DNA from: Syntrophobacteraceae bacterium
Lineage (GTDB): Bacteria; Desulfobacterota; Syntrophobacteria; Syntrophobacterales; Syntrophobacteraceae
Assembly: GCA_018053185.1 (NCBI GenBank)
Contig: JAGPLX010000004.1
Coordinates: 1 to 64,000, forward strand
Length of the DNA stretch: 64,000 nucleotides
Direction of reading: 5' to 3'
The position numbers and the translations under genes are program-made. The notes below the pieces were generated by a model. The model searched no databases. It saw only the letters and a program-made list of their open reading frames with translations, and was not told where the DNA came from. Shown here in pieces: positions 2-8,224 of this stretch. Positions within the stretch are counted from its first letter, which is position 1. Each line of letters begins with the position of its first letter.

Positions 2-136
2 ATGCAGGAAGAACATATGGCCAAGATCGCCGAAATTTTTGGAGACCAGGTGCGGGCCGTGACTCCTCTTTTCGAAACTGAAGTCAAAGGAACCGTCATG
101 CTCCAAAGGTTGGTGGACCACGTTTTTAGTACATGA
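2..136 (+). CDS. C-terminal end of an ArsA/Get3-like ATPase (partial)
   Basis: Only the last 44 codons are in the window; the gene starts upstream of it. The tail contains the run VTPLFETEVKG followed by MLQRLVDHVF. This resembles the C-terminal stretch of ArsA-family ATPases (a PLF.EV.G..ML pattern), which energise anion efflux or tail-anchored protein handling. The P-loop and switch motifs are outside the window, so the family call rests on this short tail alone. The next gene on the same strand starts about 180 bp later, so they may or may not be co-transcribed. Confidence 0.5.
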   Translation: MQEEHMAKIAEIFGDQVRAVTPLFETEVKGTVMLQRLVDHVFST

Positions 137-319: not shown

Positions 320-2374
320 ATGAAGATCCTTCTTGTTTTTCCTCCGTTTTATCTGGAACCCATGTACAGCCTTCCTCCTCTCGGACTGCTCAACCTTGCC
401 ACTATCCTTAAAAGCAGCCCTCACCAGACTACAATTCTCGACTTCCCCCTGGCCATCCGAAAGGGCCTCATCCGTCTGGATTCCACCATCTACGAGCAGT
501 GTGCATCGAGGATCCTCGAGGAAGAACCGGACCTTGTGGGCTTTTCCGTTCAATGCACCACCTATCCACCCTCCGTCCAGATCGCCAGGATCGTCAAGAA
601 ACGGCAATCCCGGATCCGGATCGTTTTCGGGGGACACAACGCCACCTTTGTAGACAAGCGAACATTGATGTTCTTCCCCTGGATCGACGCCATCGTCCGG
701 GGGGAAGGCGAAATCACATTTCCCGAGCTTGTGGCCGCCTATGATCGGGGTGAGGACGGAAAGGGAGTCCGCGGAGTTACCTATCGGAATCGAAAGACCG
801 GAGACGTGGTGAGAAATCGTGACCGGGATCTCCTGATGCGTCTCGATGAACTCCCTATTGCCGACTATCGCCTGCTGCCGCCCCTTTCCGAATACCGCGA
901 TGCCTGCAATATCCGCCGAAGCATTGCCATTCTCGAGGTCGGCAGAGGCTGTCCCCACCGCTGTGTGTATTGTTCACAGTCCCTCGTCTGGCGTCGCAAA
1001 ACCCGCACCTTCTCCGTGGACCGCATTATCGGGGAGATTCGGCACCTTCATGAGGATTTCGGTGCCCAGTGTTTTCTCCTCGCCTACGACCAGTTTACCG
1101 CGCGGAGAAGCTATGTGGAGGAGTTCTGCCGTCGAATGGTCGAGGAGCATCTGAACCACATCCCTTGGTACTGCATCTCGAGGTTGGACGGCGTGGACGC
1201 CATCCTGCTTCGAACCATGAGAAGAGCTGGTTGCGAATCCATGTGCTACGGAATTGATTCAGGTTCCAAGAAGACTCTGGCTTTCATCCACAAAGATATC
1301 GATGAGGCCATTCTTCACCAGAGGGTGCGGGAGACGACCGATGAGGAGATCATCCCGACCCTCAGTTTTGTCATCGGTTTTCCCGAAGAAGAACGGGCGG
1401 ATCTGGATGCAACCCTGGTCCTGGCTTTGAAAACCGGAATGCTCGGAACCAGCCATCCCCTGATCCAAATGGCGACGATCCTGCCTGGAACCGAGCTCTA
1501 CCGGCGCCATTCCCATCTGCTGATTCGTGAAGTGGATACCTATTTCTCCCTGGGCATCGAGTTCGACGGAGGCAGACGTCTTCAGGCCGATGAAGACTTG
1601 ATCAACTCGGATCCTCTCCTTTTCAGCAGTTTCTACAATCTCCCGTGCCCTGCAAGGTCCCTAAAGGAGCTGAACCTCATCGCATTTTTTTTCCCGCTGA
1701 TGGTCGCTTACTTCCCCAGGGCCTTTTGGATCCTGACCCATGAACTGGAGGAATCGGCCTCGGATCTTTTCCTCCATTGGATGTTCTGGCTGCAATGCCA
1801 CCTCGGCAGAAGTGAACCGTCTCTTTCCCCTCAAGATTGCTACCGGTACTTTCGCGACTACGCAAAAGGCAGGATCCGGCAAAGAAGGAGGATTCGTTTT
1901 CTCCACATCAACGATGTGTTGGAATATGAACAGTCGAGTATCGAGGTGGGGAAATTCTTTTCACATCCAGCAGGCAATTTCGCCATGGATATCCACGGGA
2001 TTCACGTTTCAAACCCTCGACGCACCGCACAGGTCCTCCTTAAAGAGTTCACATTTCCCATGACGGATATTATTATGGATCTAAAAAAGGGGGTAGTTCG
2101 GATCTCGTATGCTCCCCAAAAGACCTTTCTTGTTTTTCGGCAGAAGGGGGACCGTCTGGACGTAAAAGAAATCAACCAGTTCGGAAGGGATTTGCTTACC
2201 CTGTGCGACGGGACCCATTCCGTTCTCGATATTCGCGAGAAGCTGTATCCCGTCCATGGAAAGGATCACAGCCGGGACCATTTCACGGTTCTCTGTGTCG
2301 ATGCGATCCGGATGTTGGGAGAGATGGGAATCCTTCATGAGGGATCGCTCGATTATCCCGACGAAAGGAGGTGA
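320..2374 (+). CDS. Cobalamin-binding radical SAM enzyme with C-terminal PqqD-like domain
   Basis: A 684-residue protein if started at ATG 320, which gives the canonical B12-binding opening MKILLVFPPFYLEP; the frame is open from 209, but that 37-residue extension is low complexity. Residues 1-170 look like a B12-binding Rossmann domain with a VGFSVQC strand and an FGGHNATF loop. The radical SAM cluster is C211-x3-C215-x2-C218 (GCPHRCVYC). Residues about 590-684 resemble a PqqD/RiPP recognition domain: NQFGRDLLTLCDG, a VLDIREKL helix, then MLGEMGIL. The stop codon lies inside the Shine-Dalgarno (SD) of the 31-codon gene that follows, so the two are translationally linked. B12-dependent radical SAM enzymes perform methylations or difficult C-C chemistry, and PqqD-like domains bind leader peptides. 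A peptide-modifying role is inferred. Confidence 0.85.
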   Translation: MKILLVFPPFYLEPMYSLPPLGLLNLATILKSSPHQTTILDFPLAIRKGLIRLDSTIYEQCASRILEEEPDLVGFSVQCTTYPPSVQIARIVKKRQSRIRIVFGGHNATFVDKRTLMFFPWIDAIVRGEGEITFPELVAAYDRGEDGKGVRGVTYRNRKTGDVVRNRDRDLLMRLDELPIADYRLLPPLSEYRDACNIRRSIAILEVGRGCPHRCVYCSQSLVWRRKTRTFSVDRIIGEIRHLHEDFGAQCFLLAYDQFTARRSYVEEFCRRMVEEHLNHIPWYCISRLDGVDAILLRTMRRAGCESMCYGIDSGSKKTLAFIHKDIDEAILHQRVRETTDEEIIPTLSFVIGFPEEERADLDATLVLALKTGMLGTSHPLIQMATILPGTELYRRHSHLLIREVDTYFSLGIEFDGGRRLQADEDLINSDPLLFSSFYNLPCPARSLKELNLIAFFFPLMVAYFPRAFWILTHELEESASDLFLHWMFWLQCHLGRSEPSLSPQDCYRYFRDYAKGRIRQRRRIRFLHINDVLEYEQSSIEVGKFFSHPAGNFAMDIHGIHVSNPRRTAQVLLKEFTFPMTDIIMDLKKGVVRISYAPQKTFLVFRQKGDRLDVKEINQFGRDLLTLCDGTHSVLDIREKLYPVHGKDHSRDHFTVLCVDAIRMLGEMGILHEGSLDYPDERR

Positions 2375-2379
2375 AGGGG

Positions 2380-2475
2380 ATGCTGAAGGTGAAGGAAGTG
2401 GAGAACAAGGTGCTGTATACGGATGTATGCCATGAATCTTCGGATCAGGCATCCGCATGTCATGTCCCTACCTGA
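2380..2475 (+). CDS. 31-residue putative RiPP precursor peptide
   Basis: ATG 2380 sits 5 bp after the radical SAM stop, behind a near-perfect SD (AAAGGAGGTG). The product begins MLKVKEVENKVLYTD and ends in a polar core containing C17-H18 and C27-H28, with residues ESSDQASA between them and VPT at the C-terminus. A charged, helix-prone N-terminal half followed by a short core with repeated Cys-His and Ser/Thr is the layout expected of a precursor for a radical SAM peptide maturase, and the upstream enzyme carries a PqqD-like leader-binding domain. No homologue is recognised. The strong SD, exact spacing and codon-perfect short frame argue for translation; the substrate role is inferred from context. 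Confidence 0.6.
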   Translation: MLKVKEVENKVLYTDVCHESSDQASACHVPT

Positions 2476-2489
2476 CATGCACCGACGGA

Positions 2490-2506
2490 ATCTCCGGTAC
2501 GGAGAT
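2490..2506 (+). other. Hairpin between peptide gene and dipeptidase gene
   Basis: A perfect inverted repeat ATCTCCG-GTA-CGGAGAT starts 14 bp after the peptide stop codon. It lacks a T-tract, so it is not a standard intrinsic terminator. Its position after a short, well-translated peptide gene would suit an mRNA-stabilising or partial-termination structure that sets the ratio of peptide to downstream dipeptidase mRNA. Confidence 0.4.
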
Positions 2507-2580
2507 AGGGATGAGGTAACAGCAAACGAGGCGGGGTGAGGGGCCGGGATTCCTCATCCCACTTCCCTCAAAGGATCTGG

Positions 2581-3540
2581 ATGCAAATGCTTTCTTCCCC
2601 CCAATCCATCCCTATTGTGGATGGTCACGTGGACATCCTCTTCGAGCTAAGGGAAAACCACCCTGGAAAGACGTTCCGTGAGATCACGTCGGGCAGTGTC
2701 ACCCTCGGGAATTTGATCCGAGGGAATGTCCGGGTCATTGTTTCGGCCATTTACTGTGCCGACCAATATAACGGCGAAGGCTCGTCGGCAAACCATTTCA
2801 AAGAGTTGGTTGACTACGCTCAGGAGCATCTGGACGGCCTCATTCCCCTTCGCACGTCTCAGGAACTCCTGTCTGCATATGAATCCGGCGGACAGCAACC
2901 GGCAACCCTGTTCCTGCTGGAAAACGCCGACGCGCTGGTGGATTTGGATGTCACGGAACTGGATGCCTTGGCCATCCGCGTGGTGGGATTGACTCATGCG
3001 GGAAAAAATCGGATCGGGGATGGCAATGGAATCTTTCTTCCCGGGGGACTAACACGGGAAGGGAAAAGGGTCATCCAGAGGCTTCGGGAGGTTGGATGGG
3101 CCGTAGACGTGGCCCATTTGTCCGATCCCTGCTTCTGGGAGCTCATGGACCTCTTCGACGGCCCTCTCGTGGCCTCCCACACAGGCTTCCGGTTCTTCTG
3201 CGACACCCCGAGGAATCTCACCAAGGATCAGGTTCGAACCTTGGTGGAACGCCGGGCAGTCATCGGGATTTCTGTGAATTCGGAGATGCTCTCGATTGGA
3301 AGACAAGCCGACGAAGAGGATGTTTTCCGACACATCGATTGGATGGTTCAATCCTTCGGGTGCGGTTTCGTCGCACTGGGCTCGGACTATTGTGGTTCCT
3401 TTTTCGTAGCGGAGGGGTTGGAGGACATCTCGAGACTATCTGTTCTCGCAGACCGCATGGTACGGGATGGTTACCCTCCGGAAGCAGTCCGAGCTGTCAT
3501 GGGAGGCAACTGGGTCCGCATTTACTCGAATCTGTTTTAA
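2581..3540 (+). CDS. M19-family membrane-type dipeptidase
   Basis: A 319-residue zinc dipeptidase. The chosen start, ATG 2581, has AAAGGA 5 bp upstream; a GTG at 2536 would add 15 residues. The M19 ligand set is complete: H16-x-D18 in VDGHVD, E114 in LLENADAL, H179 in DVAHLSD, H200 in ASHTGFRF, and D269 in LGSDYCG. The family cleaves dipeptides and tolerates a D-residue at the C-terminal position. No signal peptide is visible, so it should be cytoplasmic. It lies 105 bp after the 31-codon peptide gene on the same strand, so it could trim leader remnants or products of that peptide. That link is inference; a housekeeping dipeptidase role is equally possible. Confidence 0.9.
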   Translation: MQMLSSPQSIPIVDGHVDILFELRENHPGKTFREITSGSVTLGNLIRGNVRVIVSAIYCADQYNGEGSSANHFKELVDYAQEHLDGLIPLRTSQELLSAYESGGQQPATLFLLENADALVDLDVTELDALAIRVVGLTHAGKNRIGDGNGIFLPGGLTREGKRVIQRLREVGWAVDVAHLSDPCFWELMDLFDGPLVASHTGFRFFCDTPRNLTKDQVRTLVERRAVIGISVNSEMLSIGRQADEEDVFRHIDWMVQSFGCGFVALGSDYCGSFFVAEGLEDISRLSVLADRMVRDGYPPEAVRAVMGGNWVRIYSNLF

Positions 3541-3756: not shown

Positions 3757-3957
3757 CTATTCCTCCCCCGTTTCTTTCATTTTTGAAAGTTCCGCAGCCC
3801 AATTGGGTGCCTGAGCGTTCACCAGCGTATCCTTCACGGTCCAGAACACGCTTCGAAAAAGGTTGTCGAAGTTGCCGGGCGATACCCTTCCCAGCTCGAT
3901 GAATTTGACAATGATTTCTTTGGAGATGCGGAGAATCTTCTCGTCATCCGGATTCAT
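3757..3957 (-). CDS. Small conserved hypothetical protein, 66 aa
   Basis: The product begins MNPDDEKILRISKEIIVKF and continues with IELGRVSPGNFDNLFRSVF, a compact amphipathic helical protein with no Cys, signal peptide or membrane segment. Short proteins of this style, with a Glu-Lys-rich start and a 'SP.NF...F' motif, are common in Desulfobacterota and have no assigned function as far as I recall. A weak SD (GGGG) precedes the ATG. It is transcribed away from mraZ, so the stretch 3958-4200 is a divergent promoter region. The residue pattern looks coding, but I cannot name a family. Confidence 0.55.
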   Translation of the reverse strand: MNPDDEKILRISKEIIVKFIELGRVSPGNFDNLFRSVFWTVKDTLVNAQAPNWAAELSKMKETGEE

Positions 3958-6244: not shown

Positions 6245-8224
6245 ATGGACGCACGGAACGGCAGGAACTTTCTGAACGCTCGATACTGGTCCTGTCATGC
6301 GTTCTGTAAAATTCTCATTGTTTCCGTCCTGGGTCTCATCCTTCTCAAGGCGCTGCGATTGCAGCTATGGGAACACCAAGTGTGGCTTCAAAGGGAACGG
6401 GCTCAGATCGAGACGACTTTCCAGGTTCCCACCTACCGGGGTTCCATCTACGACCGGCAGGGGAGGCTTCTAGCCTACTCTGTACCGCAGCATTCCGTGT
6501 ACGCCGACAGCGAGGTCGTGGAAAACCCCAGGCAATTGGCGAACCGGCTGGCCCCCATTTTGGAGGAGCCGGAAGCTTCTCTGGAAAAGAAGTTGTCCAG
6601 CGGGCGGAAGTTCGTTTGGTTGAAACGGCACATCACGGATCAACAGGCCTTCGCTATCGAGAGGCTGCGGGCCAGAGGACTCAACCTCATCGAGGAGTAC
6701 CGGCGTTTTTATCCTTTTCGGCAGATTGCAGGTCATGTGATTGGTTTTGTGGGAAAGGACGGCGTGGGACTCGAGGGAATAGAAAAGTCTTTTGATCGGG
6801 TCTTGCGTCAAGGAACAACCACCTTCGTCCAGCAAAGGGACGGTGTCCGGAAGTACCTGTGGCTGAATGCGGAAGCCCCGCCCGAAGTGAAGGAGAGTTT
6901 CGGGGTCACGCTCACCATCGACGCCTATATCCAGTATCTTTGCGAAAGCGAACTGGAGAAGTGCATTCAGAAGTACCGGGCGGCTTCAGGGGAGGTGGTG
7001 GTGATGGACCCAAACACTTTCGAAATCTTGGCCATGGCCAACTGGCCTTCCTTCGATCCAAATCTCGATGGGAAAAGGGACGCCGACACCTGGCGGAACC
7101 GATCCATCACCGATTTTTTCGAGCCCGGTTCCACCTTCAAGGTCTTTCTCGTGGGCGCGGCCCTGGAGGAGGGACGCATTCGGGAGAAAGATCGGGTTTT
7201 CTGCGAAAATGGAAAGTGTGTTCTGGCGGGCCACATGATCAAGGACGTGCACCCTTACGGATGGCTCACCATCCCTGAGGTGATCAAGCATTCCAGCAAC
7301 ATTGCGGCGGGAAAACTAGCCCTGCAGCTTGGTCGGGAGCAGTATTATCGATACATCAAGGGTTTCGGATTCGGCTCCCGCACCGGGATCGAGCTCCCTG
7401 GGGAAGCCAGGGGTCTGGTGCGCAACTGGAAAAAGTGGCGTCCCATCGATCTTGCCACCACGGGCTTCGGCCAGAGCGTTGGAGTGACCGCCCTGCAGCT
7501 AACCTCGGCCATTGCCTGCATCGCCAACGGGGGAGAGTGGAACCCTGCCCGGGTGATCCAGGGGATCGTGGACAACAGGGGGGATCCCACCGAACCCCTG
7601 AGAACCAAAGGCCCTCGGCGTGCCATTCAACCGAAGACGGCGCAACAGATTCGTGATATGATGCGCAGCGTGACTGAAGAGGGTGGTACCGGAGTGAAAG
7701 CGGCTCCCGAAGGATATTCGGTGGCAGGAAAGACCGGCACGGCACAGATGCAGGACCCCGTCACGAAGCGCTATGCTTCCAACAAATATACCTCGCTGTT
7801 TACCGGATTTGCTCCTGTAGAGAAGCCTCGTGTGGTCATCAGCGTGGTCATTCATGAGCCCCACGGCGCCATTTATGGAGGTGTGGTTGCCGCCCCTGTT
7901 TTCAAGAATATTGCAGCGAAGGCTCTGCCGTATCTGGGAGTGCAGCCCTCCCCCGTTGGAACCGGCAACGCGCCGGGGCTGAAGCTCGTGAAAACGCTCC
8001 AGAAGGAATCTTCCGGGCCGACTCCCTCGACGGACAACAAAACGACGGCCAAAATGCCCGATGTTTCGGGTCTGAGTCTTCAAAAGGCCCTCCAGCGACT
8101 GGCTCCTCTGGACGCTCAAGTGAAGCTGCGAGGCCGAGGAACGGTGGTGAGCCAGTCTCCTCGGGTGGGTGCGCCATTGAAACCCAAGGAAACCGTGGAA
8201 TTGGTGCTCAACGAGGCGCACTGA
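6245..8224 (+). CDS. ftsI: Septal peptidoglycan transpeptidase FtsI (PBP3) with a PASTA domain
   Basis: 659 residues. One N-terminal membrane helix (about 17-38) is followed by the dimerisation domain and the penicillin-binding transpeptidase domain: S296 in GSTFK (S-x-x-K), S350-x-N352 in HSSNIAAG, and K496-T-G in AGKTGTAQ. A single PASTA repeat occupies roughly residues 600-657, starting MPDVSGLSLQKAL. FtsI crosslinks septal peptidoglycan as partner of FtsW, encoded further down the same cluster. The PASTA tail is absent from E. coli FtsI but common in Desulfobacterota and Firmicutes. Confidence 0.95.
   Translation: MDARNGRNFLNARYWSCHAFCKILIVSVLGLILLKALRLQLWEHQVWLQRERAQIETTFQVPTYRGSIYDRQGRLLAYSVPQHSVYADSEVVENPRQLANRLAPILEEPEASLEKKLSSGRKFVWLKRHITDQQAFAIERLRARGLNLIEEYRRFYPFRQIAGHVIGFVGKDGVGLEGIEKSFDRVLRQGTTTFVQQRDGVRKYLWLNAEAPPEVKESFGVTLTIDAYIQYLCESELEKCIQKYRAASGEVVVMDPNTFEILAMANWPSFDPNLDGKRDADTWRNRSITDFFEPGSTFKVFLVGAALEEGRIREKDRVFCENGKCVLAGHMIKDVHPYGWLTIPEVIKHSSNIAAGKLALQLGREQYYRYIKGFGFGSRTGIELPGEARGLVRNWKKWRPIDLATTGFGQSVGVTALQLTSAIACIANGGEWNPARVIQGIVDNRGDPTEPLRTKGPRRAIQPKTAQQIRDMMRSVTEEGGTGVKAAPEGYSVAGKTGTAQMQDPVTKRYASNKYTSLFTGFAPVEKPRVVISVVIHEPHGAIYGGVVAAPVFKNIAAKALPYLGVQPSPVGTGNAPGLKLVKTLQKESSGPTPSTDNKTTAKMPDVSGLSLQKALQRLAPLDAQVKLRGRGTVVSQSPRVGAPLKPKETVELVLNEAH

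Follow-up and report, generated by a model that had tools for sequence, protein, structure and literature searches.

A candidate selenocysteine-containing RiPP precursor beside a B12 radical SAM enzyme in a Syntrophobacteraceae bacterium, with a proposed route to thio- or selenohistidine

This study identified a small gene at positions 2380–2508 of the window, the 64,000-nucleotide stretch of Syntrophobacteraceae DNA analysed here, which begins at base 1 of its own contig. The gene is almost certainly the precursor gene of a RiPP-type system, and its in-frame TGA at 2473–2475 very probably, judging from sequence comparison, inserts selenocysteine. A RiPP-type pathway, ribosomal and O2-independent, to thio- or selenohistidine appears to be the best explanation of the locus, and we hold it with moderate confidence. 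The features concerned are the following:

320–2374, forward strand: radical SAM enzyme with B12-binding domain (the maturase); probable start ATG 320, from which the orthologues align; the longest frame runs from 209
2015–2341, forward strand: PqqD/RRE-like C-terminal domain of the maturase, modelled alone (pLDDT 86.6); expected leader-binding site
2364–2373, forward strand: strong Shine-Dalgarno site, AAAGGAGGTG, overlapping the stop of the radical SAM gene; the same site precedes most homologous precursors
2380–2508, forward strand: precursor of 42 aa, predicted to contain Sec; leader MLKVKEVENK, degenerate units CHESS and CHVPT, then UHAPTESPVRR; stop TAG 2506–2508
2473–2475, forward strand: in-frame TGA, the apparent stop of a 31-residue ORF, read here as selenocysteine; aligned with Cys of the CHAP units of relatives
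2490–2506, forward strand: SECIS-like hairpin AUCUCC-GGUAC-GGAGAU, directly 3' of the TGA
2581–3540, forward strand: M19 dipeptidase (renal-dipeptidase family); frame open from GTG 2536; Pfam Peptidase_M19 190.8 bits against a cut-off of 26

The original prediction had placed a 31-residue peptide with the pairs C17-H18 and C27-H28 behind a strong Shine-Dalgarno sequence at this site, and these elements were all found: the frame from ATG 2380 to TGA 2473–2475 encodes MLKVKEVENKVLYTDVCHESSDQASACHVPT, contains both pairs and follows AAAGGAGGTG. The TGA did not hold up as its terminus, since the frame runs on as U-H-A-P-T-E-S-P-V-R-R to TAG 2506–2508, and the full product is MLKVKEVENKVLYTDVCHESSDQASACHVPT-U-HAPTESPVRR, 42 residues long. 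Elsewhere in the window, the C-terminal end of an ArsA/GET3-like ATPase (2–136, forward strand; a weak match below cut-off) lies upstream of the maturase at the contig edge. A 66-aa frame on the reverse strand (3757–3957), with no match in Pfam or NCBIfam, stands between the dipeptidase and an mraZ-rsmH-ftsL-ftsI-like cell-division cluster, which was recognised by eye.

A protein search of 59 related genomes recovered 16 radical SAM orthologues besides that of the window (48–74% identity). When these neighbourhoods were scanned with the leader pattern alone, the tail being left unconditioned, homologous small frames were found in 15 of the 17 orthologue loci, nearly all behind AGGAGGTGA. A sixteenth precursor (G005, L034) has a GTG start, and at the seventeenth locus (G024, L058) the precursor is lost and the radical SAM frame now runs into the precursor tail, owing either to a natural deletion or to an assembly fault. 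The radical SAM protein there (L058:4500-4560) has PESPVRR, formerly the precursor's tail, as its C-terminus, and the hairpin has been retained.

A wider scan, in which each of 84,980 species was represented by one genome, gave 69 loci, of which 26 (L091–L116, 21–30% identity) were excluded before counting as distant radical SAM proteins. The 43 full-length or nearly full-length orthologues (L048–L090, including L089, which is cut by a contig end) carry MAG labels of Syntrophobacteraceae, Desulfobacterales, Geobacteraceae, Geobacter, Geoalkalibacter, Desulfuromonas, Solidesulfovibrio and similar groups, and most genomes of the 59-genome search recur among them. With the window and L034 they make up a set of 45 loci from Desulfobacterota-type anaerobes, and the precursor adjoins the orthologous enzyme in 42; none was found in L049, the contig ends about 100 bases on in L072, and L058 has the deletion.

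The family leader has the consensus MLxVKEVEKK, and its core consists of 1–12 CHAP/UHAP units. The majority of precursors are tandem Cys-His-Ala-Pro (CHAP) repeats, such as MLKVKKVERKVSYASSCHAPSCHAPSCHAPSCHAPSCHAPS, with up to 12 CHAP units in L084. In 39 loci we counted 189 units of the form [Cys/Sec]-His-x-Pro, a count that omits L071, L077 and L081, whose precursors were missed by the counting pattern and are shown by another scan. His directly follows 191 of the 192 precursor Cys/Sec residues in these 39 loci, which supports the earlier suggestion that the Cys-His pairs are modification units. The invariance of C17-H18 and C27-H28 at their own positions was not borne out, as some relatives have no Cys at all before the TGA; among window-type precursors only the Sec-His-Ala-Pro unit, located past the apparent stop, is invariant. 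For the leader, the pooled pN/pS of codons 1–10 was 0.19 (14 loci), and this value, together with the homologues in relatives, indicates a real small gene under selection. The arrangement is that of a RiPP precursor, namely a short gene beside a maturase with a recognition element, with a conserved leader and a variable or repeated core.

The identity of these peptides with the CefA Cys-every-fifth RiPP (NF038108) was considered and rejected, the weak matches being a matter of composition: the best CHAP peptide scored 20.1 bits against a cut-off of 30, and the window peptide was unmatched. Matches to NF038108 at E <= 0.01 occurred in 17 of 395 genomes of the phylum, one of them above the cut-off, and when the stretches were read they turned out to be either the CHAP genes or repeat frames of no relation to them, several of which lie on the reverse strand.

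The window-type precursors, in which the leader and few or no CHAP units are followed by TGA, were found in the window and 13 relatives, 14 loci in total. Each of them continues after the TGA as HAP[TS][EQ]SPVRR and meets a second stop at the same place, and within the HAP codons the only differences are at third positions (0, 0 and 3 for the three codon positions). The pooled pN/pS after the TGA was 0.078 over HAP[TS] and 0.088 over the whole tail, for tails located by a HAP-requiring pattern; the two alternative frames gave 2.6 and 39. The conservation of the tail is independent of that pattern, because the precursors were gathered by their leader and every one of them that was not plain CHAP had the HAP[TS][EQ]SPVRR tail. 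Frameshift or decay as the cause of the TGA was rejected because of this purifying selection on the downstream frame.

The genome of the window contains a tRNA-SeC with anticodon tca and SelB (386.6 bits against a cut-off of 242). Among 26 maturase genomes, the best tRNA-Sec score was 58–79 bits in 25 and only 50 bits, the level of a cross-hit, in G001 (88% complete). In addition, the formate dehydrogenase FdhA of the window's genome has a TGA followed by HAPT, and a hairpin with a GGU loop lies about as far from the TGA as in the precursor gene; the gene is located at L194 (G000 C7:2886-4895, G000 being this genome). The presence of a UHAPT selenocysteine cassette in both FdhA and the precursor may reflect either shared origin or convergence, and formate-dehydrogenase mimicry or capture of the cassette are candidate readings. 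Because purifying selection downstream, tRNA-Sec with SelB and the similar UHAP-plus-hairpin in FdhA all agree, and since the TGA is aligned with Cys of homologues as in selenoprotein genes, we read it as Sec; the gene would therefore be 2380–2508, and UHAP, by its alignment with CHAP, is predicted to be the selenium version of that unit. One locus (L061) carries two precursors, a cysteine type with five CHAP units and a UHAP selenocysteine type (7034-7225 and 7504-7608), with starts about 470 bases apart.

The loop of the hairpin sits 20 bases past the TGA, and its GGU is kept in 13 of 14 loci, L062 having AGU. The stem is invariant across loci, without covariation, and the z-score against shuffled sequences was only -0.92 in single-sequence folding. 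An Rfam scan of 2300–2620 gave only three chance-level matches and no model at the hairpin; these hairpin results count against the main reading. Decoding of Sec through a hairpin immediately downstream of the UGA would be part of the proposed system, and SelB-SECIS pairs can be specific to a species.

Concerning the maturase, the 320–2374 protein exceeds the Pfam cut-offs for both B12-binding and Radical_SAM, and the folds nearest to its AlphaFold model (pLDDT 91.4) are TsrM, TokK, MgmA, OxsB, AprD4 and CysS. Its C-terminal domain matched the RRE of the lasso protein TbiB1 with Z 10.8 (84 aligned, 2.2 A) and PqqD with Z 8.4, a fold match that is not specific on its own because a histone-methyltransferase domain ranks first (11.2). 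Pfam PqqD reaches its cut-off in the orthologue L082, lies below it in three other orthologues and has no match in the window maturase's own C-terminal domain. The best NCBIfam model was ApyD (NF050148), at 242.7 bits and thus below its cut-off of 750; ApyD is itself a B12 radical SAM protein with an RRE, and its reaction is the beta-methylation of Tyr (PMC10635010). Thioether formation by a cobalamin radical SAM enzyme is known from ThnL (PMC13331322).

The second enzyme linked to the precursors is a methyltransferase with a Trm112-like N-terminus. Its best NCBIfam model, and by far its closest family, is the OvoA C-terminal 4-mercaptohistidine N1-methyltransferase (TIGR04345), with scores of 84–114 bits that stay under the cut-off of 170. 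Compared with solved structures, its profile matched OvoA (113.5 bits), OvsM (113.0 bits) and OvoM (111.4 bits), the next chain scoring 51. In 395 genomes of the phylum, the maturase occurs in 13, the methyltransferase in 52 (E <= 1e-25) or 45 (E <= 1e-100) and a metallopterin enzyme, whose best solved relative is acetylene hydratase, in 20. The methyltransferase is present in every one of the 13 maturase genomes: in 10 it adjoins the maturase, and in G000, G003 and G006 it lies elsewhere (hypergeometric P 1e-13, relatedness ignored). It is found in 18 of the 20 metallopterin genomes, and the metallopterin enzyme and the maturase occur together in none (P 3e-4 within the 45, relatedness ignored). 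This pattern fits alternative C-S-forming modules feeding one methyltransferase.

Against the main reading here, the methyltransferase scores below the TIGR04345 cut-off, that of the window's genome sits on another contig, and 14 of the 45 methyltransferase genomes have neither the maturase nor the metallopterin enzyme, three of those having OvoA. In 20 methyltransferase loci (L162–L181; 17 genomes without the maturase plus G000, G003 and G006), no convincing CHAP/UHAP peptide was found nearby, and the metallopterin enzyme was in the neighbourhood in 12, where it may provide a possible metallopterin-dependent route to thiohistidine. The methyltransferase of the window's genome (C8:1261-2199), in the stretch L162:379-3661 (G000 C8), lies between a gene of the Sfum_1244 family (DUF6866) and cysQ, and a gene of the cysQ cluster is also beside the methyltransferase in G003 and G006. 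The OvoA N-terminal (sulfoxide-synthase) domain was above cut-off in none of the 26 maturase genomes; five gave weak matches to the model (126–137 bits), which we label EgtB-like, and OvoA was present in 6 of 14 further genomes checked.

In 13 of the 14 selenocysteine-type loci, a dipeptidase gene follows downstream of the maturase on its strand; the contig of the fourteenth ends after a further 362 bases. In the 31 other loci, the dipeptidase occurs in 14 (in one of them upstream and divergent), the methyltransferase in 18 and at least one of the two in 24. A convergent cysteine-desulfurase-like PLP gene was found in 9 of the 45 loci. Genes for a polar-amino-acid ABC transporter (solute-binding protein, permease and ATPase; closest models GlnQ, EhuA, TcyN and HisP) stand just upstream of the maturase in several genomes (L083:587-4890, L060, L061 and L086).

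The precursor family, the conserved frame after the TGA, the selenocysteine machinery, the gene neighbourhood and the co-occurrence are established from sequence, and on this ground we propose a pathway. From its fold, the RRE would bind the leader (MLKVKEVE.K), and the radical SAM enzyme would then form a bond between the Cys sulfur or Sec selenium and the imidazole ring of the neighbouring His, as an O2-independent counterpart of the OvoA reaction, of which a Cys or Sec directly before His is reminiscent. The histidyl-(seleno)cysteine may be freed by proteolysis and the M19 dipeptidase, and a C-S/C-Se lyase, perhaps the neighbouring cysteine-desulfurase-like PLP enzyme, would release 5-thio- or 5-selenohistidine. 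Finally, as homology and co-occurrence suggest, the OvoM/OvsM-like methyltransferase would N-methylate this compound to ovothiol or ovoselenol. Because the Cys/Sec exchange is always next to His and is accompanied by a thio/selenohistidine methyltransferase and a dipeptidase, the product is more likely to be a small chalcogen-histidine compound than a mature peptide. We regard thio- or selenohistidine as the probable, though far from certain, product, and put the chances that the maturase forms the Cys/Sec-His bond at about even. The full sequence of events, in which the B12 radical SAM enzyme joins the Sec or Cys of UHAP/CHAP to the adjacent His and 5-selenohistidine/ovoselenol or 5-thiohistidine/ovothiol is then set free, with the genetic code selecting Se or S, is likewise a balanced proposition.

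Several known systems bear comparison with this proposal. The ovothiol pathway consists of OvoA (5-histidylcysteine sulfoxide synthase), OvoB (beta-lyase) and OvoC (N-methyltransferase); a 2025 paper describes ovothiol A biosynthesis only via these three (PMC12631010), and OvoA couples free Cys and His oxidatively (PMC12631010, PMC10903977). Both routes would achieve a net transfer of Cys sulfur to His followed by N-methylation, with a homologous methyltransferase, whereas a ribosomal peptide and a radical SAM enzyme are used here and OvoA is absent from 26 of 26 maturase genomes. The stand-alone 5-thio- and 5-selenohistidine N-methyltransferases OvoM and OvsM (PDB 9bxl and 9bxh; names as in the PDB molecule names) are the top profile matches of the associated enzyme, and their S/Se pair parallels CHAP/UHAP, although the associated enzyme has an extra N-terminal Trm112-like segment and its substrate is assigned by homology. 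The aminopyruvatide maturase ApyD, with ApyI, likewise combines B12 radical SAM chemistry, a built-in RRE and a ribosomal precursor, but it acts on Tyr, and the MNIO and P450 of that system are absent here. The metallopterin-dependent ergothioneine synthase MES of anaerobes forms a C-S bond on a histidine derivative without O2 and has acetylene hydratase as a reported relative (PMC9516567). It resembles the present system in that genomes other than those with the maturase pair an acetylene-hydratase-like relative with this methyltransferase family; unlike the maturase, MES performs Mo/W chemistry on a free amino acid, and its relative never occurs with the maturase in 395 genomes. As in the pearlins and 3-thiaglutamate (carrier peptide TglA), an amino-acid product would be made on a ribosomal peptide scaffold (PMC9016710, PMC9303977); the pearlin scaffold receives Cys from cysteinyl-tRNA (PMC9016710), and the enzymes differ. 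The formate dehydrogenase alpha subunit encoded by this genome also has U-H-A-P-T and a hairpin with a GGU loop, but is a large molybdo/tungstoenzyme with the motif as a single active site, not a repeat; that UHAPT is also this active-site motif counts against the main reading.

Three other explanations were weighed against the thio/selenohistidine pathway. In the most serious, which we consider unlikely, the same RiPP-type gene would have its core C-methylated by the radical SAM enzyme (e.g., at His or Pro), giving a modified peptide whose Cys/Sec serve in redox or crosslinking, the methyltransferase link being incidental. Such a function would agree with the beta-methyltyrosine formed by ApyD, the nearest NCBIfam model, and with the cobalamin radical SAM methylases that make up most structural neighbours of the maturase. 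However, the retention of Cys/Sec before His in 191 of 192 cases and the swap of Cys for Sec point to a likely participation of the chalcogen itself, the methyltransferase accompanies the maturase in 13 of 13 genomes, and the dipeptidase suggests a very small product.

The two CH pairs had led the original prediction to suggest a defined modification or metal-binding core. Cys-His repeats are dense in the family, with as many as 12 CHAP units in L084, and tandem Cys/Sec-His ligands, modified or not, might sequester or deliver a metal. This is improbable, since window-type precursors have a single UHAP and sometimes zero Cys, metal-transport genes are not recurrent among the conserved neighbours examined, and the methyltransferase and dipeptidase would be left unexplained; nothing points to metal in the neighbours, which are the B12 radical SAM enzyme, the M19 dipeptidase and often the thiohistidine-methyltransferase-like enzyme. 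Least probable in our judgement is that the TGA is an ordinary stop, with the 31-residue peptide made and the hairpin a mere regulatory element: an invariant stem would be compatible with that function, but the frame-specific purifying selection past the TGA, the conserved second stop, the exact Sec/Cys correspondence with CHAP and the presence of tRNA-Sec and SelB all speak for selenocysteine.

Protein-family annotation includes proposals of radical-SAM 'selenobiotic' peptide systems. A search of the open-licence literature gave no occurrence of that word in the papers listed for it, and no description of CHAP/UHAP precursors or of a peptide route to ovothiol.

The gene described in this study would be a RiPP precursor with a genetically encoded selenocysteine and natural sulfur counterparts in relatives, and because these counterparts exist, the decoding of the TGA as well as the function of the chalcogen is open to testing. 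As gene callers stop at TGA, they would truncate such precursors. The thio/selenohistidine pathway is one candidate explanation for a possible formation of ovothiol-type compounds in strict anaerobes that lack OvoA, and it may be a possible source of selenium metabolites. If it is true, the choice between sulfur and selenium in a small metabolite would be made by the genetic code itself.
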